Assembly (NCBI GenBank): GCA_001899145.1
Contig: MKVF01000001.1
Coordinates: forward strand, 1-36,357
Direction: 5' to 3'
From: Flavobacteriia bacterium 40-80
GTDB lineage: Bacteria; Bacteroidota; Bacteroidia; Flavobacteriales_D; Crocinitomicaceae
DNA length: 36,357 nucleotides
Numbering within the stretch: position 1 is the stretch's first letter; each line of letters begins with the position of its first letter. The notes under the pieces are model-generated. The model was not told the DNA's origin. It saw only the letters and a program-made list of their open reading frames with translations, and did no database searches. This document shows, piece after piece, positions 1 to 36,357 of this stretch. The position numbers and the translations under genes are program-made.

Positions 1-517
1 CGCTTCCTGTGAAGACAAAGTCAGCTTAATGTGGAAGACAGCTACTGAAACGAATGTGAGCCACTATGAGATCCTTCGTTCCCGTGACGGCCAGTTCTGG
101 GAAGAGGTAGCAACAATTCCTGCGGTGGGTAATTCCACGACAGAGCAAGTTTACCATGCAACCGATGCAACAGGTCTTGAAACGATGTACTACAAGCTGC
201 GTTCCGTAGACAATGACGGAACAAGCGAGGACTTTCAGCCTGTTTCTGTGACCTGTAACCCTGGAGCACTTTGGAGCATTCATCCTGTACCTGTTTCTGT
301 GAAAGCTACAGTAACAGTAACAGCTACAGAGACGAGCCATGATGTGTTTGTGATCACGGATATCAACGGACGAGTGGTGACTACCCAACAAGTGGAGATC
401 AAGGAAGGCACGAGCATTTTCGAGCTTGATCTACACCGTTTGTCAGAGGGCACTTATTTCATTAGAATGAACCAGAGTGATAAGTATTCACCGTTGAAGT
501 TCATAAAGGTGGATTAA
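1..517 (+). CDS. C-terminal end of a T9SS-sorted surface protein (5' partial)
   Basis: The reading frame is open from base 2, so the start lies upstream of the window. About 171 residues are visible. They contain a linker domain (motif TATETNVSHYEILRSRDG) common in Bacteroidota secreted proteins, followed by a roughly 80-residue beta-rich tail with DINGR and LSEGTYFIRM signatures, which match the T9SS type A sorting domain. Such domains are recognised by the type IX machinery at the outer membrane and usually removed after export. The tail differs from that of the next gene at only 5 of 162 residues. The passenger part is not visible, so its function is unknown. A strong terminator follows at 582-617. 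Confidence 0.9.
   Translation, partial: ASCEDKVSLMWKTATETNVSHYEILRSRDGQFWEEVATIPAVGNSTTEQVYHATDATGLETMYYKLRSVDNDGTSEDFQPVSVTCNPGALWSIHPVPVSVKATVTVTATETSHDVFVITDINGRVVTTQQVEIKEGTSIFELDLHRLSEGTYFIRMNQSDKYSPLKFIKVD
1..517 (+). repeat. Direct repeat copy 1 (T9SS C-terminal cassette)
   Basis: This segment aligns without gaps to 5022-5538. By hand I count about 28 mismatches in 517 bases, or about 95% identity. The repeat may extend upstream of the window. Identity ends at the stop codon. Confidence 0.93.
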
Positions 518-581
518 ATCTCAGATTGTTAGAAGGCAGAGGCCAGACCTAGAGACATTCGATTTAAGATAAGATATAAAC

Positions 582-617
582 AAACCAAAGGACTGCGAAA
601 GCAGTCCTTTGGTTTTT
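582..617 (+). terminator. Rho-independent terminator after the first T9SS gene
   Basis: A perfect 15-bp stem (582-596 with 601-615) closes on a GAAA tetraloop and runs into a T-rich tract. It sits 65 bp after the stop codon of the upstream gene. Confidence 0.93.
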
Positions 618-672
618 ATTAGTATGATTAGCACCGAACAATAGAATATGATTTCCAAGTTTATTTCTTCAA

Positions 673-708
673 AATCCGTGTAAATCTGCTTCATGCGTTT
701 TATCATCG
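673..708. repeat. Dispersed imperfect repeat, copy B
   Basis: This 36-bp stretch matches 5589-5624 at about 29 of 36 positions, sharing the core AATCTGCTTCAT. Both copies lie just downstream of a T9SS gene carrying the near-identical C-terminal cassette. Similar 'CAGATTnACACnGATT' repeats are scattered in many Bacteroidota genomes, to my recollection. No gene is supported here. Confidence 0.6.
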
Positions 709-855
709 CCGTATAGAGAACTAAATCGAGATTCATTATATAAAAACAAGTGAAAAATTAACTGATTTGTTGTTTTTTCATTTTTAATTTGGAGATATGA
801 TGTTAATTTTCTAATATATGTATATGAAGAATTTCTTTTCTCATAGAGAATATTG

Positions 856-863
856 TACTTTCG
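856..863 (+). promoter_or_regulatory. Promoter -7 box TACTTTCG of the giant T9SS gene
   Basis: TACTTTCG differs by one base from the Bacteroidota -7 consensus TAnnTTTG. It lies in a block (GTACTTTCGCnCTGT) that also precedes the T9SS gene at 29027. The predicted leader to the ATG at 982 is over 100 nt. Confidence 0.6.
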
Positions 864-915
864 CTCTGTAAATTAAATCTAAATCTACAAAAAGTGATTA
901 TTGATTGATGATTTC

Positions 916-943
916 ATTGTAACAATATTTGTTCTTGAACAAA
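916..943. promoter_or_regulatory. Two palindromes in the predicted 5' leader
   Basis: ATTGTAACAAT (916-926) and TTTGTTCTTGAACAAA (928-943) are adjacent perfect inverted repeats between the promoter box and the ATG. They could be operator sites or RNA hairpins. There is no direct evidence which. Confidence 0.45.
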
Positions 944-981
944 CATCATGAGGATTCCCATTTTTGTTTTTCTGATTTTCT

Positions 982-3900
982 ATGATAGAGATGATTAATA
1001 CAACAACAATTCTGAAAAAGAATTCTATTGCGCGAAAAATAAAAACAAACACTTTCTTTTTTTCGCTTCTGTTTTTATTTCTAAGCCCAATATTTTTAAA
1101 AGCGCAAAGTTATTCGGTAGTTGGTACAGGAACAGCAGGAAATACCAGTACAACTTATCCGACTCCTTTTGGAGACTACTACGAAAATAGTAAAGCTCAG
1201 TATTTGTTTCAGGCTTCAGAGCTAGTGGCTGCAGGGATTCCGGCCGGAGCCACTATCAGTCATATCCGCTGGAATGTCAGCGCGTTGAATGCTGCAGGTG
1301 TCCATGAAAGATATACAATCTATGCAGGTACAACAACTTCCGTTCAGATCCCCAATAGCGCATTTTTGGCTGTGCCGGATCAGCAATATGGTCCGGTTGA
1401 TTATACACCGGTAAGCGGAAATAATACATTTACTTTTACCAATCCGTTTATATGGAATGGTACGGACAATATTTTAGTGCAAATTTGCAGTAATTCAGCG
1501 AACTCAACATCGGGAAATACTTATACATATAATGCCAGCGTTAACTGGGTTACAGGATTATCTTTTAATGGCTCATATACTGTTAGAAATGACGATAATA
1601 ATACGCTTTGTGGAGCAACAACCTCTGCTAGCAGTAGCCAGACAACCCGCCCTAATACTTCTTTCGGCTGGTGTAATACTTTAACTTCTTATACTGTTTC
1701 CGGAGGAGGTGCAATATGCCCCGGAGGGGATGTTTCAATTTCATTGTCGGGATCTCAGGTTGGAGTAAATTATCAGTTGAAGAGAGGCACAACAAATATT
1801 GGTTCTCCGGTAGCGGGTACCGGAACTGCTATTTCTTTTGGGAATCATTCAACATCAGGAACTTATACAGTGGAGGCGACAGGAACAGGATCTTTTTGTT
1901 CCGCAGCCAAAACGATGACGGGTTCCGCTGTAATAACAGCAGGTACAAATTCCGTTCAGGCAACATCTGTTTCCGGGCCCCTTTCTGTTATCAGTGGTAC
2001 CTCTAATACATATTCAGTTACAGGGGGATCACTGGGTACAGGAGCTGTTTGGAATTGGTACACAGGGTCTTGCGGTGGTACTTTGGTTGCTGCCGGGGCT
2101 AGCTACTCACCTGTTGTTTCAGGGCCGGTTACTTATTTTGTCCGGGCTGAGGGAGCATGCAATACTACATCTTGTGTATCTGTTTCCATTACAGCTGAAA
2201 ACGCATGTAATGCTATTTATGTCGATGCTGTTAATGGAAACGATTTGTATTCCGGTTTAGCTTCATCACCGGTTAAAACGCTTAGTAAAGCGTTGTCATT
2301 GGTATCGGGATCAAGAAATCAGATTAAGATGACTTCCGGAACTTATCCGGAAAGTACTATTCTGGAGCTACAAAATGATGTGGTTATTGAGGGAAGATAT
2401 GTAAATGTTTCAGGAATCTGGACAAAATCGTCCGGTACTTCATCTGTTACGCAAATAAATTGTTCCGGCTCGGAAACAATTAGCAATGATATTGCTCATG
2501 TAATGGGCTTCAAAAGCGATAACAAAAGTAACTGGAAACTTATAGATTTGAACATAACTACGCTTGCTGCGACCGGTCAGACAGCGAACAGAAAAGGAAA
2601 ATCGAATTATGCCTTATACATTACAAACGGCTCTTCTTCGTATGAGATAACACGATGTTATATCACTTCCGGAAATGCTTCAGGCGGTCAGGGAGCAAAT
2701 ACAAATTCTTCATTGTTTAATGGATCAAATGGATCAAATGGTTTAGTCGGATCAACGGGTAATGGAGGAGCATCATCCTGTAGCTGGTCAACTGATCGGG
2801 GCGGAAGCGGTGGTGCAGGTGGTGCTGGAGGTACAGGTGGTGCAAATTCTACTATTATCGGAGGAAATGCTGGTTCCGGTTTTACCGGAGGAGCGGGAGG
2901 AAGAGGTAAGGATGACGATGGATATAGTGGAACCGCAGGTTCGGGAAGAACAGGGACTTGCTCTGGTGGCGGTGGAAGTTTAGGGCCTGACGATAGTGGA
3001 AATAATGATTCTCCTTATGGAGGAAATGGAGCGGATTGTACAACTAACGGGACAGGAGGATCGAATGGCTCGACTGTAGCATCTTCATTTGTTTCCGGGT
3101 TTTATTCACCCGGTTACGGAACGAACGGCGCTTCCGGATCCGGCGGCGGTGGCGGAGCAGGTGGCGGTGGCGGTGGTGTAGATAGCGGTTCTTGTGCTGC
3201 TGCGGGTTCAGGTGGTTCAGGTGGTTCCGGCGGCGGTGGTGGCGGTGGTGCAGGTGCAGGCGGCCAGGGTGGCGGATCTTCCTTTGGAGTTTTTATTTGG
3301 AATGCTGGAACTAATGGAGTTATTAATAATTCGGCAATAAACGCAGGAAATTACGGAGAAAAAGGTACTGGAGGTGCTGGAGGTGAAGGAGGTTCCGGTG
3401 GTGCGAAATCTGCTCAGGGTAATACTTCCAGTGATGGTCAATCTAATAGAGGAGGACGAGGAGGACAAGGTTCTGGTGGAGGAAAAGGAGGTAATGGTGG
3501 TGATGGAACAGATGGTACCAGCAGAGCGGTTGCAGTACAGGGTACGGGAACAGCCCCTGTTTTCAATGCAACTACTCCTGCCATTGTTGTGAATACATCT
3601 GTATCCGGAGGAAGCGTAACCAATTCTCCTGTGGTAACCCTCAGTCAGGTTCCTAATAAGATTTGCCAAAATTCCGTATTAAATGTGACTACAACAGTAG
3701 CCCCATGGTCCTTTCCAGGCGGTTGGTCTTTTGTAAAATATAATAATTCGAATGTGACATCAGAGTTTACAGAAACCAGTTTAACGGCAGACATCACAAC
3801 AACAAATACAACAGGTTTTTATAATATGACGGCTAATGGTGTTGTATTTAATTCATATTTGAATGTAAAATCTGACAGAACTTTACCAGTTATTACTATT

Positions 3901-5538
3901 ACTCCTGACCCTGTTTGCACTGGTAGTACAGCAACTTTTTCAGCTACCTCCTGGGGTAATGAAACAGAATATCTTTGGGAGCTTTTTACAGGTTCTGTGG
4001 CTGATAACAAAGGGAATACAACAAATAGAGTTGCCTTGCATTCTACAGCTTCTTTTAATATCAGCAATTTGCCAGCCGGAACCTATACGATCCGTTATCA
4101 GGTAAAAGAAAGCTGCTGTGGCTGGAGTATTCCTGTATTCCGGACATTTGAGGTTAAAGGACCTGTTGCGGAAATAACTACATCCGATAGTACAATTTGT
4201 CATGGTATGGCTGTTTCAATCGGTGGAAATATAACTGCTTCAGGAACCTGGACTATAAATCTGAGTCCATCCGGCTCTGTAACAGGAACAGGAACGACGT
4301 GGTCGGCAACAGTTACTCCTTCTGCAACAACAACCTATTCAATTGCTTCTGTCTCTGATGGATGTACGGGTATAGGTACCGGATCAACAACAATATCCTT
4401 GCCGGCGAAAGGCACCGCTTTATCTGGGAATGAGTCTGCAACATGTTATGTAAGTGGGAATAATCCTATACATTTCTATGCTTCGTCAGGTAATTATATT
4501 GGTTCAATCAACCCGCAAGGGAGAGCAGGAACCTTAACCATGACTTCTTATCTTGACGCCGGCGGAACAATGTACGCTTGTGGTGTTCCTGCGAGTGAAG
4601 ATTACCGTACTGCTTTTATGGGCAGACATTTTACTGTTGTACCAACCGGAACAATTAGTGGCAGCGGTAATTTGAGTGTGTATTTCCCATATTCTCAAAC
4701 AGAATACAGCGACCTTGCAGCAGCAAGTATAGGAACGACGACAAGTAACGTAAATGACAATGTTACCTCCCATAGTAGTATTGCAGTCACGAAATATTCT
4801 AATCCAGGCAATGAAGACGGGAATCCTTTCAACAATTGCTCCGGCGGTTCTGCCTTAGTTGTTCTTCAGTCAGGTAATGGTAATCTTACAGACCTTAGCT
4901 TGTCACCAGTAATTACCGGAACTAATTACTATGCAAGCTTTGGAGTTTCCAGCTTTTCGGAGTTTTACCTGCATGGAGTAAATGCAAACTCCCCATTACC
5001 TATTACCTTAACGAGCTTTACCGCTTCCTGTGAGGACAAAGTCAGCTTAATGTGGAAGACAGCTACTGAAACGAATGTGAGCCACTATGAGATTCTTCGT
5101 TCCCGTGACGGTCAGTTCTGGGAAGAGGTAGCAACAATCCCTGCTGTTGGTAATTCCACGACAGAGCAAGTTTACCATGCAACCGATGCAACAGGTCTTG
5201 AAACGATGTACTACAAGCTGCGTTCCGTAGACAATGACGGAACAAGCGAGGACTTCCAGCCTGTTTCTGTGACCTGTAACCCTGGAGCACTTTGGAGCAT
5301 CCATCCTGTACCTGTTTCGGTGAAGGCTACGGTAACAGTAACAGCCACAGAGACGAGCCATGATCTGTTTGTGATCACGGATATCAACGGACGAGTAGTG
5401 ACTACCCAACAAGTGGAGATCAAAGCAGGCACAAGTATTTTTGAGCTTGATTTGCACCGCTTGTCAGAGGGTACTTATTTCATTAGAATGAACCAGAGTG
5501 ATAAGTATTTACCGTTGAAGTTCATGAAAGTGAATTGA
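982..5538 (+). CDS. Giant glycine-rich surface protein with T9SS sorting domain
   Basis: 1518 residues. A long signal peptide ends near LFLSPIFLKAQ (residues 25-42). Then come: an N-terminal beta-rich domain; Ig-like modules around residues 230-400 with paired cysteines; a segment starting YVDAVNGNDLYSG (about 413), which resembles the opening of parallel beta-helix (pectate-lyase-like/DUF1565) domains; a glycine-rich tract at about 570-850 with GGxGG runs; more Ig-like modules; and from about 1338 the LPITLTSF linker and T9SS type A sorting domain. The expected location is the cell surface, attached or secreted by T9SS. A role in adhesion or matrix formation is inference. An alternative start is at 991. 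The last 517 bp nearly duplicate the end of the upstream gene, and several modules recur in the gene at 31685. Confidence 0.93.
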   Translation: MIEMINTTTILKKNSIARKIKTNTFFFSLLFLFLSPIFLKAQSYSVVGTGTAGNTSTTYPTPFGDYYENSKAQYLFQASELVAAGIPAGATISHIRWNVSALNAAGVHERYTIYAGTTTSVQIPNSAFLAVPDQQYGPVDYTPVSGNNTFTFTNPFIWNGTDNILVQICSNSANSTSGNTYTYNASVNWVTGLSFNGSYTVRNDDNNTLCGATTSASSSQTTRPNTSFGWCNTLTSYTVSGGGAICPGGDVSISLSGSQVGVNYQLKRGTTNIGSPVAGTGTAISFGNHSTSGTYTVEATGTGSFCSAAKTMTGSAVITAGTNSVQATSVSGPLSVISGTSNTYSVTGGSLGTGAVWNWYTGSCGGTLVAAGASYSPVVSGPVTYFVRAEGACNTTSCVSVSITAENACNAIYVDAVNGNDLYSGLASSPVKTLSKALSLVSGSRNQIKMTSGTYPESTILELQNDVVIEGRYVNVSGIWTKSSGTSSVTQINCSGSETISNDIAHVMGFKSDNKSNWKLIDLNITTLAATGQTANRKGKSNYALYITNGSSSYEITRCYITSGNASGGQGANTNSSLFNGSNGSNGLVGSTGNGGASSCSWSTDRGGSGGAGGAGGTGGANSTIIGGNAGSGFTGGAGGRGKDDDGYSGTAGSGRTGTCSGGGGSLGPDDSGNNDSPYGGNGADCTTNGTGGSNGSTVASSFVSGFYSPGYGTNGASGSGGGGGAGGGGGGVDSGSCAAAGSGGSGGSGGGGGGGAGAGGQGGGSSFGVFIWNAGTNGVINNSAINAGNYGEKGTGGAGGEGGSGGAKSAQGNTSSDGQSNRGGRGGQGSGGGKGGNGGDGTDGTSRAVAVQGTGTAPVFNATTPAIVVNTSVSGGSVTNSPVVTLSQVPNKICQNSVLNVTTTVAPWSFPGGWSFVKYNNSNVTSEFTETSLTADITTTNTTGFYNMTANGVVFNSYLNVKSDRTLPVITITPDPVCTGSTATFSATSWGNETEYLWELFTGSVADNKGNTTNRVALHSTASFNISNLPAGTYTIRYQVKESCCGWSIPVFRTFEVKGPVAEITTSDSTICHGMAVSIGGNITASGTWTINLSPSGSVTGTGTTWSATVTPSATTTYSIASVSDGCTGIGTGSTTISLPAKGTALSGNESATCYVSGNNPIHFYASSGNYIGSINPQGRAGTLTMTSYLDAGGTMYACGVPASEDYRTAFMGRHFTVVPTGTISGSGNLSVYFPYSQTEYSDLAAASIGTTTSNVNDNVTSHSSIAVTKYSNPGNEDGNPFNNCSGGSALVVLQSGNGNLTDLSLSPVITGTNYYASFGVSSFSEFYLHGVNANSPLPITLTSFTASCEDKVSLMWKTATETNVSHYEILRSRDGQFWEEVATIPAVGNSTTEQVYHATDATGLETMYYKLRSVDNDGTSEDFQPVSVTCNPGALWSIHPVPVSVKATVTVTATETSHDLFVITDINGRVVTTQQVEIKAGTSIFELDLHRLSEGTYFIRMNQSDKYLPLKFMKVN
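5022..5538 (+). repeat. Direct repeat copy 2 (T9SS C-terminal cassette)
   Basis: Second copy of the cassette at 1-517, offset exactly 5021 bp, with no indels and about 28 substitutions, of which only five alter the protein across the 162 residues compared. Confidence 0.93.
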
Positions 5539-5550
5539 TGGCTTTATGGG

Positions 5551-5616
5551 ACACAGATGACGCAGATTTAATATGATTTTGACAAGAGAATCTGTGTCAA
5601 TCTGCTTCATCTATGT
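5551..5616. repeat. Dispersed repeat copy A, an imperfect inverted repeat
   Basis: The left arm 5551-5568 (ACACAGATGACGCAGATT) pairs with the right arm 5599-5616 (AATCTGCTTCATCTATGT) at 16 of 18 positions. The element fills the gap between the convergent T9SS and transporter genes. It is related to 673-708. It has no T-tract typical of a terminator. Confidence 0.65.
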
Positions 5617-29026: not shown

Positions 29027-30376
29027 ATGAAAAAAACAGTATTAAGTTTAATGCTGGCATTGCCGCTTTTGGTAAAAGCGCAGTGTCCAGCGGCATCAGC
29101 TATCAATGATAGCTTTGAGAGTTATGCGGCAGGATCAGGTCAGGGAATGCCGACCTGTTGGGCATTGGAAGGTTCTTCCGGAGGAATGGGACCAACAATC
29201 GGGTTAAGAAATTCGGCCGGAGAAGCAAGAACCGGATCAAACTATATTCAGATCTATTCCTTCTTTTCGTCTAATCCGACCAATTATTTTATTACCCCCG
29301 AATTAACAGCAATTGACGGCTATCATTATGCCAGATTCTATTTAAAATCAGATGATGCGGGCGCAATGACTGTTACGTATGGGACAATGGATTCACAATC
29401 CAATACGGCTTCGTTTAACGCTTTGGGAACGGCTACCCTCACAAATAACCAGTATGTTGAAGTGAATACGGGAGCGATTCCTGCCACAGCACATAAATAT
29501 TTTGCTCTTAAAATTGAAATCTCCGGGATGCACAAGACAATTAAGCTGGATGATTTCGAATGGGGAGCTTTAGCAGTACCGTGTAATGAGGTAACAAACC
29601 TGATCTCTTCGAACGTTACTAAAAACACCGCCAAAGTCTCCTGGAACGGACAAGCCGGAGATCAGTTTAAAGTGGAATACGGCCCGGTTGGATTTACACC
29701 GGGAAACGGAACATCTCAGACAATCTTGGCGACTGAAATTAATCTGACAAATTTATCGGAAGGTACGGCTTATGATGTTTATGTAACAACCGTGTGTCAA
29801 AACGGAAACAGCACGACCAGCCCGAAAGTGACATTTACGACAACTGTTTGTAGTGAAGCCAGCAACACATTGGCATCACAGATTACAAAAAATGCTGCGG
29901 TTATTTCCTGGGCTGTACAGGTCGGAAATCAGTTTAAAGTGGAGTACGGAATGAGCGGATTTGCGCCGGGAAATGGTATTTCTCAGACGGTAACAACAAA
30001 TCAGATCAACCTGACCAACCTTAATGAAAACACAGATTATGATGTGTATATTACGACTATTTGCGGATCGGAAACCAGCAATAATGCCGTTAAGGTGAGC
30101 TTTAAAACCTTGAATACGCTTGCTGCCATGATCGCAGAAGGGAAATCTCCGTTTACTGTTTATCCGAATCCTTCGGACGGAACAATTATTTCACTTGTCA
30201 CCGAAGAAGATTTGTCAGATTACCATTACGCTGTTTATACTGTTGAAGGAAAACAAGCGATAGAAAATTCACTGAATCAGATAATTGATGTGTCACAATT
30301 GGAGAGCGGGGCATACCTGCTTGTTATTCGAAACCGTTCGAATTCATTTACTCATCCGATCTTAATTCAAAAATAA
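29027..30376 (+). CDS. Secreted T9SS protein with two fibronectin type III domains
   Basis: 449 residues. The signal peptide ends near MLALPLLVKAQ (1-19). A MAM- or cleaved-adhesin-like jelly-roll domain follows (about 20-185, starting DSFESYAAG), then two tandem Fn3 domains (about 185-275 and 275-367) that share QFKVEYG...GFxPGNG...SQT, and a T9SS type A sorting domain from about 378 (FTVYPNPSDG to the end). It is exported to the surface or medium. The ligand is unknown. Two membrane-protein genes follow closely and may be co-expressed. Confidence 0.93.
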   Translation: MKKTVLSLMLALPLLVKAQCPAASAINDSFESYAAGSGQGMPTCWALEGSSGGMGPTIGLRNSAGEARTGSNYIQIYSFFSSNPTNYFITPELTAIDGYHYARFYLKSDDAGAMTVTYGTMDSQSNTASFNALGTATLTNNQYVEVNTGAIPATAHKYFALKIEISGMHKTIKLDDFEWGALAVPCNEVTNLISSNVTKNTAKVSWNGQAGDQFKVEYGPVGFTPGNGTSQTILATEINLTNLSEGTAYDVYVTTVCQNGNSTTSPKVTFTTTVCSEASNTLASQITKNAAVISWAVQVGNQFKVEYGMSGFAPGNGISQTVTTNQINLTNLNENTDYDVYITTICGSETSNNAVKVSFKTLNTLAAMIAEGKSPFTVYPNPSDGTIISLVTEEDLSDYHYAVYTVEGKQAIENSLNQIIDVSQLESGAYLLVIRNRSNSFTHPILIQK

Positions 30377-31467: not shown

Positions 31468-31684
31468 ATTTTTAGTTCTTCCTGCCTTTCAACTTTCTGC
31501 TTTTCCCTAAAGCATTCATTAATTTTTTATAAATTTTCATCAGAAAACCCTTTTTGTTCATTCAAAGCATCTTAACATTTACATCAAAAGTTATTTTTAT
31601 AAATTTATATATTCTTTACGTATAAAAGAATTGATTAACAAACATGTACGTACAAATTAAACCACTATCAAAAATTCATAATTT
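31468..31684. other. Intergenic region before the terminal giant gene
   Basis: Very AT-rich sequence with no gene. A weak promoter candidate lies near 31605-31625 (TATATTCTTTACG), only loosely like the TACTTTCG boxes of the other T9SS genes. Confidence 0.4.
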
Positions 31685-34600
31685 ATGGAAATATTTTTAC
31701 GAAAGAAGCATGCTATTATATTGTTGCTTTTTATATTAAGTATATCGTGGAATAGTTATGCAGGTTCGCAGGTTTATGTGTTTCCTGCAGCAACAGGAAC
31801 CGGCTATGTTACTTTCCCGGGTGTGGGTAGTGACTGTGTAGATTTATCGGCAATTGTTCCTGTCGGAGCTACTAATGTCGTTGTGACGTTAACTAACCTG
31901 GGTGTTGATTTTGATTTATTTGCTCGCAATAATGGTAACTGCCCTACGACAGGTAATTATAGCTATGTTTCTGGTGCAAGTGGCACAACGAATGAATCCG
32001 TTAACTTAGGCTCTTTTTGTGATGGAAACAATTGGAGGGTGAGGGTAAATAAATATAGTAGTGGTTCAGGAGGTGCAACTTTAACAATCTCATGGACAGA
32101 TCCTGCTCCTGTGCCCGGTTTTGGTAGCAATTCATGGAATGTACTTGCATACAATGCGCCAACGACATATAATGCTGTGAATTACCTAAACTTAACGGGT
32201 ACTACATATAGAGGATATTACACAAATCCAAATTTAAATATAAGCACGAATAGTTTATGGGGATTAACCGCATCTCCTTCGGCGGCTAGTGGCTACGTAG
32301 GTTGTCCGGTTACTAATAATAATCACGTTTTCATCTATAAAAGAAAGGGCTTTGCGTCCGGATGTTACTCTATATCAAATATTGTCTATGATGATGCGAT
32401 ACGAATTTATATAGATGGTTCTCAAGTGTATGAAAATACAGGGTGCTGTTCTATGGCAGGAGTGGCATGGCTGGGATATTTAGATGCAAACAGCGAGGTT
32501 GAAATTCGCGTAGCAGAAAATACCGGAGATAGTCGTTTGAATTTGGATTTTGCTACAGGAGCGACTTTTTCTGTTACTGCAAATTATGACCCAACAGCCT
32601 GTGGTCCTAATATTGTTTTAAATTCAAGTTACTCCGTTGCTCCGGGGGCATCACCATACCAATCCTTGACATATAATTGGACGGGAGCATCAATTGTAAG
32701 CGGAGCAAATACGGCTACTCCAACAGTTAATCCTACAAGTTCAACAACATATACACTCAATGCAAGTTATAATGGTTGTGCAAGCGCGCCTGTTAATGTT
32801 ACGGTAAATCCGCTTATCATTACAGCTTCTTCCACAATTGTTTGCCCAAATGGTACATTGGATTTGAGTACTCCGGGGGAATGGGCATCGTTGCCCACAA
32901 ATGCAACCCTGGTTACAGGTGCAAATCCAAATAATGAGTATTATAGTCGATTTACGGCCAATACATCCTTTAATACCCCTGTAGAGTTAAAAACTGCCCG
33001 TCTTTTAGTAGTTGGCGGTGGTGGTGGCGGTGGCTCTAACGGCGGCGGTGGTGGTGGCGCAGGCGGCTTTTATACGAATTCATCTATTTCTATACCATCC
33101 GGGAATACCACTGTAACAATTGGTGCTGGTGGTGCAGTTCACAATAATTCAGCATCACCTAATACAGCTGCGACAAATGGAGGGCAGTCAGCTTTTGGCT
33201 CTTATACTGCTGGTGGTGGTGGTGGTGGTGCTTCACGTGATCAGGGCTTAGCCGGCCAGAATGGCGGAACGGGAACTGTACAGGGCTCTGGTGGCGGTGG
33301 CGGTGGATGCGTTACATCTGCAACTCGTCATACTGGAGGGACAGGAGTTTTTTCCGGAGGAACCGGGTTTAGAGCTGATTGTCCTGCTGCTGGTGGCGGT
33401 GGCGGTGGCGCAGGTAGTGCGGGAAGTAATGCTGCAAGTAATAATGGAGGCGCCGGTGGTGCCGGATTGCAAAGTAATATCACTGGAGTAAACTTATGGT
33501 ATGCCGGTGGTGGTGGTGGTGGAACCACAAATTTTAATGGTGGTGCTTGTGGAAATGGTAATGTATATAACAACGGTGCCGGAGGTAGCAGTGTCGGAGG
33601 TTATGGTGAAACTAACAGTGGAAGTACAAATATAATACAGTATGGTCCAACAGCTAATACTGGTTCTGGTGGAGGTGCAGAACAAACAGGTGCGGCGGGT
33701 GTAGTCATTATACGTTACCGCGTACCAAAATATACGCTTTCGGCAATTACTGCAACAGGAACGACTATCAATGAACTTACAGGAGTTATAACGGCCGGTT
33801 CAACAGCAGGTACAGTTACCGTAACTTATACCAATGAATTTGGCTGCACAACTGCTCCTGTAATAATAACTGTAGGCGGATCTATCGCACCGTTGGAAAC
33901 TACCGTATCGCCTGTGGGCAATTGTAGTGGTGCAACGGTTACTTTGAAGGTCAATGACAAAGTAGGAAAAGGGGGGCTGATTGATCATTCAACATGGACA
34001 GTTGGTACAGGAAGTATTACTGGTTATACTGTAAATGAAACAAACGCTACTGAAAATGCACGAATTAATGGTACTGACCCATGGGGAAAATCAACCGTAA
34101 TATGGGAAGGAAGAGCTTCTGGCGATGGAAACGGTGATGGCGGCTGGAATGGATCACAGGTAGCTATTGATAATACAAAAACATATAGATATTCAGTTTG
34201 GATAAAAAGAACCGTTCAGGGGACAGCAGGCAGATTCTATTTGGGCCTTCAGAGTAATGCCGGAGGCGCTTATACTTTAGCAGGAAGTTCCGATGGTAAT
34301 CCTTATTTCTGGTATTCCTCAACACCAGCCGGCTCAGAACTGCCTACCGGAGAGTGGGTGCTTGTAGTGGGTTATGTTCACCCTGTTTCATACACTGGGG
34401 CTACAGACCCTACGTCTGGCAGATACACTGTTTCAGGTGGACGATATGGTGGTATATTTTATGATTATAAATGGGCTCCGGGAACGACAACCGCCAGCTT
34501 AAGAACCTATCTTTACTATGCGGATGGAACAGCACAACAGCAATGGGTTTATCCGAGAATAGACGTAGTAGATGGTTCAGAGCCAAGTATTCAGGATCTT

Positions 34601-36357
34601 TTAGCCGGTTTTGATAAAAATGACGGGCTCGGTGATGGTGCGTCCTGGAATTGGTATTCAGGTTCGTGTGGTGGTACGTCAGCAGGAACCGGGAGCTCGA
34701 TCACAGTTGCACCTGCTTCAACAACACGTTACTTTGTCCGGGCAGAAGGAGGTACCTGTGCTATAACAACTACTTGTAAAGAAGCTACGGTCATTATTAA
34801 TCCTAAAGTCAGTGATCCAACAATTACGGCAAATGGTGCTACTACATTCTGTAATGGAGGGAGTGTCCAATTAACCGCCTCTGATATTAGCCATGCTGGT
34901 AATGCAATGAGTTTTACCGGCGGGCAAGCGGTTAGTTTAGGTAATCCTCCTTCCTTAAAGATAACAGGTAACCAAACTATAGAAATGTGGGTAAAACCTA
35001 CTAACTACGCTTCCGGAAGACAAAATCCGTATAATAAAGCATATGCCGGTGAAGGTACAATTACCCAGGAAACCAATGGTTACCTTAATTATTACTATGG
35101 TATTGATGGTAATAATGGACTCAATTATCAAGGGTTTACAAGTGGAGGAGCAGTAAATAACGGTCAGTGGAATCATATTGCTATAGTTCGGGATTTTACA
35201 AACAACCAGTTACGCTGGTATATAAACGGTGTGCTAAGTAGCACAGGAACACCTGCCTATTCATACGCAGTTGCCGGAGGTAATGATGTGACAATCGGCA
35301 CCGGGTATGCCGGAGGATATGATGGTCTGATAGACGAAGTCAGGGTTTGGAATGTAGCGAGAACGACTTCTCAGATTCAAGCTGATATGAATGCCCCTAT
35401 TGCTCCCGGAACTTCAGGACTTGTAGGGTATTGGAAATTTGATGAAGCAAGCGGTGGTATAGTTACGGACGCTTCCGGATATAGTAATTCCGGTACTTCA
35501 ACAGGGACACGAGCTATTCCATCAACAGCTCCAATGGAAGCTCCCGCTGGCACTTACACATGGTCACCTGCTACCGGATTAAGTACAACTTCCGGAAAGG
35601 TAGTAACGGCAAGCCCAGGTTCTTCTCAGACATATACGGTAGAGGTAGCTAATCCATTAGGATGTGCAGTTGGATCAAAAGTACAAGCTGTAACTGTCAT
35701 TGCTAATCCGACAGGAGGAGCGCTGAGCGCAACGGATTACTGTGCAGGGGGAAGTAGTACAGCTTCTGTTTCAGGAGTTTCAAACGTAACACAATATTCG
35801 TGGTCTTTAGGTGGTTTAAGTGGTAGCTCCACTACTAGCTCTATAGGAGTAAGCGGTGGCACAGGTGGAACCAGCTATACGATTAGTGTAACACCTCAAA
35901 ATGTTGTTTCCGGTACAACATGCCCGGGAACAGCGGTTACAGCAAGTATTAAAGTTGACGCACCCTCCACTCTTCCAAGTTTGATTACAGTTGACAATAA
36001 TACGAATAACTGCTGGGGCCGTCCTGTGACATTAACGGAGAATGGCGGAATATTACAGGGAGCCTCCCAATACATTTATGGAACAAGTGTTGGTGGTACG
36101 CAAGTGAGTGGTGCTACTAACGCGACATCTGTTACAACGGTTCCGTCCGGAACAGCCACTTATTATGTCGGAGTTACAGCCAACGGCGCGTGTCCTGCCC
36201 AGAACTTAGCAACAGGAATCACGTATGCCCTTCCAACAAGAAATGCTTTGCTATCCTCGAACAGTTCCGGTACGTGCTACGTGAGTGGTTCCAATCCGAT
36301 CCATTTCTATGATGCGTCAAATAATTATATAGGCTCTCTTAATCCTCAGGGCAGAAC
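31685..36357 (+). CDS. Giant glycine-rich surface protein, PA14-like and LamG domains (3' partial)
   Basis: The frame is open from the ATG at 31685 to the window end, at least 1557 codons. In order: signal peptide (IILLLFILSISWNSYAG); a beta domain (about 22-137) resembling pre-peptidase C-terminal domains; a PA14-like domain with YDDAIRIYIDG (about 143-300); an Ig-like module; a glycine-rich domain starting ARLLVVGGGGGGG (about 437-685); a jelly-roll, carbohydrate-binding-like module (about 770-960); an Ig-like module with WNWYSGSCGG (988); a LamG/concanavalin-like domain (about 1073-1250, ending GLVGYWKFDE); and more Ig-like modules. The final visible CYVSGSNPIHFY...YIGSLNPQGR matches the end region of the 982-5538 protein, so a T9SS sorting domain is expected beyond the window. 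A surface adhesin role is inferred. Confidence 0.9.
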   Translation, partial: MEIFLRKKHAIILLLFILSISWNSYAGSQVYVFPAATGTGYVTFPGVGSDCVDLSAIVPVGATNVVVTLTNLGVDFDLFARNNGNCPTTGNYSYVSGASGTTNESVNLGSFCDGNNWRVRVNKYSSGSGGATLTISWTDPAPVPGFGSNSWNVLAYNAPTTYNAVNYLNLTGTTYRGYYTNPNLNISTNSLWGLTASPSAASGYVGCPVTNNNHVFIYKRKGFASGCYSISNIVYDDAIRIYIDGSQVYENTGCCSMAGVAWLGYLDANSEVEIRVAENTGDSRLNLDFATGATFSVTANYDPTACGPNIVLNSSYSVAPGASPYQSLTYNWTGASIVSGANTATPTVNPTSSTTYTLNASYNGCASAPVNVTVNPLIITASSTIVCPNGTLDLSTPGEWASLPTNATLVTGANPNNEYYSRFTANTSFNTPVELKTARLLVVGGGGGGGSNGGGGGGAGGFYTNSSISIPSGNTTVTIGAGGAVHNNSASPNTAATNGGQSAFGSYTAGGGGGGASRDQGLAGQNGGTGTVQGSGGGGGGCVTSATRHTGGTGVFSGGTGFRADCPAAGGGGGGAGSAGSNAASNNGGAGGAGLQSNITGVNLWYAGGGGGGTTNFNGGACGNGNVYNNGAGGSSVGGYGETNSGSTNIIQYGPTANTGSGGGAEQTGAAGVVIIRYRVPKYTLSAITATGTTINELTGVITAGSTAGTVTVTYTNEFGCTTAPVIITVGGSIAPLETTVSPVGNCSGATVTLKVNDKVGKGGLIDHSTWTVGTGSITGYTVNETNATENARINGTDPWGKSTVIWEGRASGDGNGDGGWNGSQVAIDNTKTYRYSVWIKRTVQGTAGRFYLGLQSNAGGAYTLAGSSDGNPYFWYSSTPAGSELPTGEWVLVVGYVHPVSYTGATDPTSGRYTVSGGRYGGIFYDYKWAPGTTTASLRTYLYYADGTAQQQWVYPRIDVVDGSEPSIQDLLAGFDKNDGLGDGASWNWYSGSCGGTSAGTGSSITVAPASTTRYFVRAEGGTCAITTTCKEATVIINPKVSDPTITANGATTFCNGGSVQLTASDISHAGNAMSFTGGQAVSLGNPPSLKITGNQTIEMWVKPTNYASGRQNPYNKAYAGEGTITQETNGYLNYYYGIDGNNGLNYQGFTSGGAVNNGQWNHIAIVRDFTNNQLRWYINGVLSSTGTPAYSYAVAGGNDVTIGTGYAGGYDGLIDEVRVWNVARTTSQIQADMNAPIAPGTSGLVGYWKFDEASGGIVTDASGYSNSGTSTGTRAIPSTAPMEAPAGTYTWSPATGLSTTSGKVVTASPGSSQTYTVEVANPLGCAVGSKVQAVTVIANPTGGALSATDYCAGGSSTASVSGVSNVTQYSWSLGGLSGSSTTSSIGVSGGTGGTSYTISVTPQNVVSGTTCPGTAVTASIKVDAPSTLPSLITVDNNTNNCWGRPVTLTENGGILQGASQYIYGTSVGGTQVSGATNATSVTTVPSGTATYYVGVTANGACPAQNLATGITYALPTRNALLSSNSSGTCYVSGSNPIHFYDASNNYIGSLNPQGR

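Follow-up and report, generated by a model that had tools for sequence, protein, structure and literature searches.

Near-identical fibronectin type III-like and sorting domains at the 3′ ends of neighbouring type IX secretion cargo genes in Flavobacteriia bacterium 40-80, with recombination as the probable cause

In the stretch of DNA analysed here (36,357 nucleotides from Flavobacteriia bacterium 40-80, hereafter the window), two neighbouring genes for cargo proteins of the type IX secretion system (T9SS), named U and Z, have near-identical 3′ ends. The nearest precedent is the hagA-kgp region of Porphyromonas gingivalis, a gum-disease bacterium. In that region, closely placed T9SS cargo genes are virtually identical at their 3′ ends, and kgp has been lost in two spontaneous variants, BE1 and BR1, a loss that the authors ascribe to probable homologous recombination at hagA-kgp (PMC9328147). 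The two cases are alike in having nearby T9SS cargo genes with direct, near-identical 3′ ends, here 517 bp long at an offset of 5021 bp, but deletions have been observed at hagA-kgp, whereas here the near-identity covers a fibronectin type III (FnIII)-like domain together with a sorting domain and a deletion is a matter of arithmetic only. For the diversity of P. gingivalis gingipains and haemagglutinins, recombination, allelic exchange and gene conversion are invoked by the authors of a second report (PMC5266723). These, too, are surface proteins whose C-terminal domain is conserved and whose upstream domains are modular, but the comparison there was between strains of one species, whereas here it concerns paralogues within a genome, and also in another genus. 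The families TIGR04183 and PF18962, whose curated cut-offs are exceeded by the sorting domains of U and Z, as expected of T9SS type A cargo, describe the sorting domain alone and not its homogenisation jointly with the preceding domain. Since recombination between near-identical 3′ ends has already been proposed for hagA-kgp (PMC9328147), no new mechanism is claimed. The part worth following is the recurrent homogenisation of the FnIII-like and sorting unit between neighbouring cargo genes, of which no report was found among the open-access papers listed, mostly judged by titles and abstract openings.

The window is the entire contig C1 of a 3.52-Mb genome in 32 contigs. The features on which the comparison of U and Z depends are as follows.

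2..517, + strand: copy 1, the 3′ end of a truncated T9SS cargo gene (U) with FnIII-like and type A sorting domains; the host gene runs off the contig
278..508, + strand: type A sorting domain of copy 1 (TIGR04183, 34.6 bits, cut-off 23)
982..5538, + strand: gene Z, a T9SS cargo protein of 1518 amino acids
4429..4983, + strand: domain of Z without a Pfam match, beginning NESATCYVSG, upstream of the cassette; its nearest relative was seen in genome G092, of another genus
4984..5298, + strand: FnIII/immunoglobulin (Ig)-like domain of Z, near-identical to copy 1 from 5022 onward
5299..5538, + strand: type A sorting domain of Z (Por_Secre_tail) and stop codon

Positions 1-517 and 5022-5538 (copies 1 and 2, in U and Z) align without gaps at 28 mismatches in 517 bases, a likeness far beyond chance (BLAST E 1.1e-234), and form a direct repeat on the same strand with an offset of 5,021 bp. 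An earlier reading made from the letters alone (the sequence-only reading) had described this ungapped match with about 28 substitutions and 5 residue changes, and its coordinates and counts hold, the encoded cassettes differing at 5 of 171 residues. Codon differences comprise 21 silent and 5 residue-changing ones (21/26 silent), the longest exact run is 107 bp, and the mismatches are unevenly spread, with 8 falling within 1-290 and 20 within 291-517. On its 3′ side the tract is flanked by the stop codon, where the likeness between copies 1 and 2 ends; the same reading had noted this, correctly for these two copies but not for a third on contig C32, where the likeness continues for about 100 bases. 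On its 5′ side the tract passes beyond the contig edge, and because the window is the whole of contig C1, the start of the repeat at base 1 is an assembly edge and no true boundary.

The shared unit had been taken for a sorting cassette; instead, it consists of the FnIII-like domain plus the sorting domain, not of the sorting signal alone. In Z, the sorting domain occupies residues 1440-1508 and scores 29.4 bits against TIGR04183 (cut-off 23) and 42.3 against PF18962 (cut-off 27), while the gene C18p, which enters the comparisons below, scores 20.1 against TIGR04183, below its cut-off of 23. The roughly 100 residues ahead of the sorting domain have Pfam matches only below cut-off, and a search of solved structures by sequence gave none at E up to 1. 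An AlphaFold2 model of this part, built from two sequences with a mean pLDDT of 69.8, consists entirely of strands; the structures that it matches, at a middling score, are those of FnIII and Ig domains, so the designation FnIII-like carries the caveat of a moderate model and middling matches. Further upstream lies the domain without a Pfam match, of about 185 residues, which occurs in 17 of 240 genomes of the family, including this one; in five relatives, two or three genes close together each carry one. The N-terminus of Z has a basic and hydrophobic stretch. SprA is a core component of the T9SS and was the only part of the machinery searched for; it is encoded at C9:93197-100348 (TIGR04189, 2394.9 bits, cut-off 200), with matches in 0 of 14 control genomes.

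Silent sites provide a cleaner comparison than protein identity. At residues on which U and Z agree, the same codon is used at 79 of 86 positions in the FnIII-like part and 60 of 74 in the sorting domain, 139 of 160 in total, against a baseline of 858 of 2098 for genes at different loci, taken from this genome only (Fisher p 2.6e-31). Protein identities were compared for 61 genes from 24 genomes: 58 open reading frames from the loci of relatives and of this genome, kept at an alignment score of at least 130 with both domains covered, plus U, Z and, for the identity means, the reading frame at window position 29027. The loci came from the regions of 11 of the 16 relatives with the upstream domain and from 14 further regions, 8 picked for clustered matches and 6 with single matches. 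In the FnIII part, mean identity is 63% in 27 adjacent pairs and 57% in 12 non-adjacent pairs whose members lie in the same array, compared with 39% both in 67 same-genome pairs at different loci and in 1664 different-genome pairs. These means omit segments shorter than 40 residues, which are retained in the 71 pairs of this genome's genes at different loci, where the mean is 36%.

Trees of the two adjoining domains conflict with one another. In the upstream-domain tree Z pairs with the G092 gene (96/89), a pairing rejected by the FnIII data (approximately unbiased (AU) test, p-AU 0.0027), which group Z with U and C18p (99/98), and the two neighbouring genes of genome G064 form one FnIII clade (100/99) that the upstream domain rejects (p-AU about 2e-59); these AU p values are not strict, because the clades were named after the identities had been seen. 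The conflict covers Z and the G064 pair, U having no upstream domain in the assembly.

The same pattern was found at other loci. The adjacent G064 pair shares a 437-bp tract at 94% identity with an exact run of 105 bp, which ends inside the sorting domain about 43 codons ahead of the stop; both ends lie within the genes between diverged homologous flanks. The N-terminal passengers of this pair have no BLAST match to each other, as is the case for 4 of the 12 pairs compared, the adjacent pair of locus L149 among them. Silent-site steps between the cassette and the part upstream were examined in 12 comparisons picked from 28, in addition to U and Z against the baseline. A step was present in a second pair of this genome, on contig C28 (p 5.6e-5), and in two of three pairs of genome G015 (p 8.5e-3 and 8.0e-10).

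The U-Z cassette also belongs to a mosaic family made up of several large genes, three further members of which run off contig ends. Contig C32 (4,850 bp, read in reverse) starts with the tail of a third cassette, 96.7% identical to copy 1 over 330 bp and 91.6% to Z over 226 bp, and its match to copy 1 goes on beyond the stop codon and takes in a hairpin with a T run. After this tail comes the giant gene Y, which is open on the right; contig C29, read in reverse, contains another open giant gene, V, preceded by what we take by eye to be NADH dehydrogenase (nuo) genes. The remaining features of the window that bear on this family, or flank the two copies, are listed here.

582..618, + strand: hairpin with a T run behind it, downstream of copy 1, also present after the C32 copy; terminator-like, as judged from its sequence
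673..694, + strand: small intergenic repeat, 20 of 22 bases matching 5589-5610
5589..5610, + strand: the other copy of this intergenic repeat (20 of 22 bases shared with 673-694)
31685..36357, + strand: gene X, a giant gene of at least 1557 codons, of the same family as Z, cut by the right contig end before its own terminus
36158..36337, + strand: second homogenised block, in X, which has an unbroken exact match of 116 bp with Y on C32 and one of 109 bp with V on C29

The two intergenic repeats correspond to the small related repeat that had been reported downstream of both copies. Same-codon identity at agreeing residues rises from 20 of 42 outside the second block to 53 of 60 inside it for X and Y, and from 33 of 70 to 58 of 64 for X and V. 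The block is located where the domain beginning CYVSG starts. Contigs C1, C29 and C32 all end within it or at most about 250 bases after it (the ends of C32 and C29 are loci L045 and L117), which may be because short-read assembly of repeats could break there. In all, V, Y and X are open on the right and C1 and C32 on the left. The order of C29, C32 and C1 was not settled by the synteny of a nuoN-like protein and RadA in nine relatives: the former was found in four (E at most 1e-30) and RadA in all nine, the two lying about 540 kb apart on one contig in G010 and on different contigs in the other three.

Several observations stand beside this family. A 143-bp patch of X (window 33704-33846), apart from the other blocks, recurs in V at 93% identity, and the start of X and the region before it are 74% identical to those of Y (window 31514-31697 against C32 in reverse, 491-677), perhaps a shared promoter and signal region. 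Another T9SS cargo gene, at 29027-30376 between the giant genes, has above-cut-off matches for both an Fn3 and a sorting domain. The contig ends C2/C27, C4/C21 and C6/C14/C26 also fall within long repetitive open frames, and C26 (4,545 bp) consists of one open frame, 1,514 codons long and internally repetitive. A circle or plasmid formed by C1 and C32 was considered and dropped, as C1 contains radA, purH, purD, mreB and mreC by Pfam matches and a third open end exists on C29. The cassette had no match in 50,697 phage records, and each of the 17 plasmid records that it matched was below 60% identity.

Given the near-identity of U and Z, their silent-site excess, the greater likeness of neighbours than of distant pairs on average, the conflicting trees and the intragenic tract in another genus, we infer that related T9SS cargo genes keep the FnIII/Ig-like and type A sorting unit alike by recombination while their passengers differ, and put the probability of this at roughly three in four. 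Gene conversion in particular is supported by the silent-site identity, the conflicting domain trees and the recurrence at a second locus of this genome and in two genomes of one genus. Conversion or shuffling with varying passengers had been proposed in the sequence-only reading; the same-codon excess, tree conflict and recurrence support this, for a unit larger than the sorting signal. Z and its upstream neighbour would belong to a family of large T9SS-secreted surface proteins with a common C-terminal unit, which homologous recombination between related genes on the same strand would convert, mainly by non-reciprocal gene conversion and perhaps by unequal crossing-over too. Purifying selection would preserve the protein, so that newly accumulating differences would be mostly silent, and the passenger of the unseen upstream gene presumably differs from that of Z. 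The domain pair may be preserved because it must function as one export unit. In P. gingivalis RgpB, secretion is blocked by a point mutation disrupting contact between the sorting domain and the one preceding it (PMC11285876), and by analogy the FnIII-like and sorting domains may therefore have to fit each other. Were copies 1 and 2 to cross over, 5,021 bp including Z would be lost and one hybrid cassette would remain; the 5021-bp offset given earlier for loss of the whole of Z is arithmetically correct.

A number of observations, besides the loose AU p values, weigh against this explanation. The assembly includes neither the host gene of U nor the point at which the U-Z tract begins on its 5′ side. 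In the best FnIII tree the G092 pair likewise fails to form a clade, and the upstream-domain data do not reject a clade of Z, C18p and Y (p-AU 0.081). Comparison with related genomes, a check put forward with the sequence-only reading, gave steps in G064 and G015, beside the one at C28 in this genome, but most adjacent pairs examined do not show the pattern, FnIII silent identity being at least 65% in 7 of 27 and below 65% in 20. A step relative to the pair's own upstream part reached p<0.01 in 4 of 11 adjacent pairs tested and failed to do so in 7. Outside this genome, the step was significant in G064 and G015, both of which are of one genus (g16), and in G124, of another genus, the step is non-significant (FnIII p 0.055, cassette p 0.19). 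Identity is higher in the upstream part than in the FnIII part, resembling plain duplication, at loci L141, L142, L051 and L158, for the first L157 pair and for one L156 pair out of three. Although Z and C18p have an FnIII likeness of 79%, they sit at the silent baseline (30/78), and their likeness is therefore old; it was at first assumed to be homogenisation and was dropped as such on this result. Between genomes, too, identity is higher in the FnIII part than in the sorting part (39% vs 27%), so that the higher FnIII identity within pairs is partly constraint. Finally, homogenisation may extend beyond direct neighbours, since X, Y and V are on separate contigs and X lies about 26 kb from Z.

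Three other explanations were weighed against recombination of the shared unit. Maintenance of the cassette in old paralogues by purifying selection alone would account for the preponderance of silent changes between U and Z (21 of 26 changed codons) and for the excess of FnIII over sorting identity between genomes, but it would not leave same codons at 139 of 160 positions, far over the baseline of 858 of 2098 and with silent divergence well short of saturation, nor does it sit with a mean FnIII identity of 36% over the 71 different-locus pairs of this genome, and we regard it as very improbable. Passenger replacement, in which recombination puts new N-terminal passengers before an existing cassette (domain shuffling), draws on the 4 of 12 pairs whose passengers lack a BLAST match; the domain directly upstream is nevertheless still homologous in both G064 and Z, from separate lineages, and because the G064 tract stops within the sorting domain, about 43 codons short of the stop, conversion of an internal stretch suits it better than a swap of the entire upstream sequence. 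This explanation is therefore unlikely.

A recent whole-gene tandem duplication, with the left copy truncated merely by the contig end, would demand even similarity through the upstream gene, which is possible given that this gene lies outside the window, and arrays resembling plain duplicates do occur in relatives. V, X and Y, the sole candidates seen for the host of copy 1 and those covered by this comparison (the host could be a gene absent from the assembly), match the upstream part of Z at only 73-78% over 84-103 bp each (blastn), and beyond those stretches there is one 42-bp match in the V passenger together with short intergenic repeats. The partial upstream domain of Y is 73% identical to that of C18p and 49% to that of Z. 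Since these genes are not evenly similar to Z, plain tandem duplication appears quite unlikely, and recombination of the shared unit between related genes is the explanation we prefer.

A wider reading is that tandem T9SS cargo arrays in Bacteroidota end in a common 3′ adapter made up of the FnIII-like and sorting domains, which recurrent local gene conversion keeps specific to each array while passengers are gained, lost or swapped in frame; this we offer tentatively, as a possibility more doubtful than not. If true, such arrays would be loci for in-frame gain, loss and swap of passengers ahead of a ready-made export signal. Silent-site identity across the domain borders of neighbouring cargo genes provides a simple test, and cassette homogenisation is a possible reason for contig breaks in such genomes. 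If general, the process would account for how bacteria rich in secreted surface proteins change the parts that they display and still retain export.
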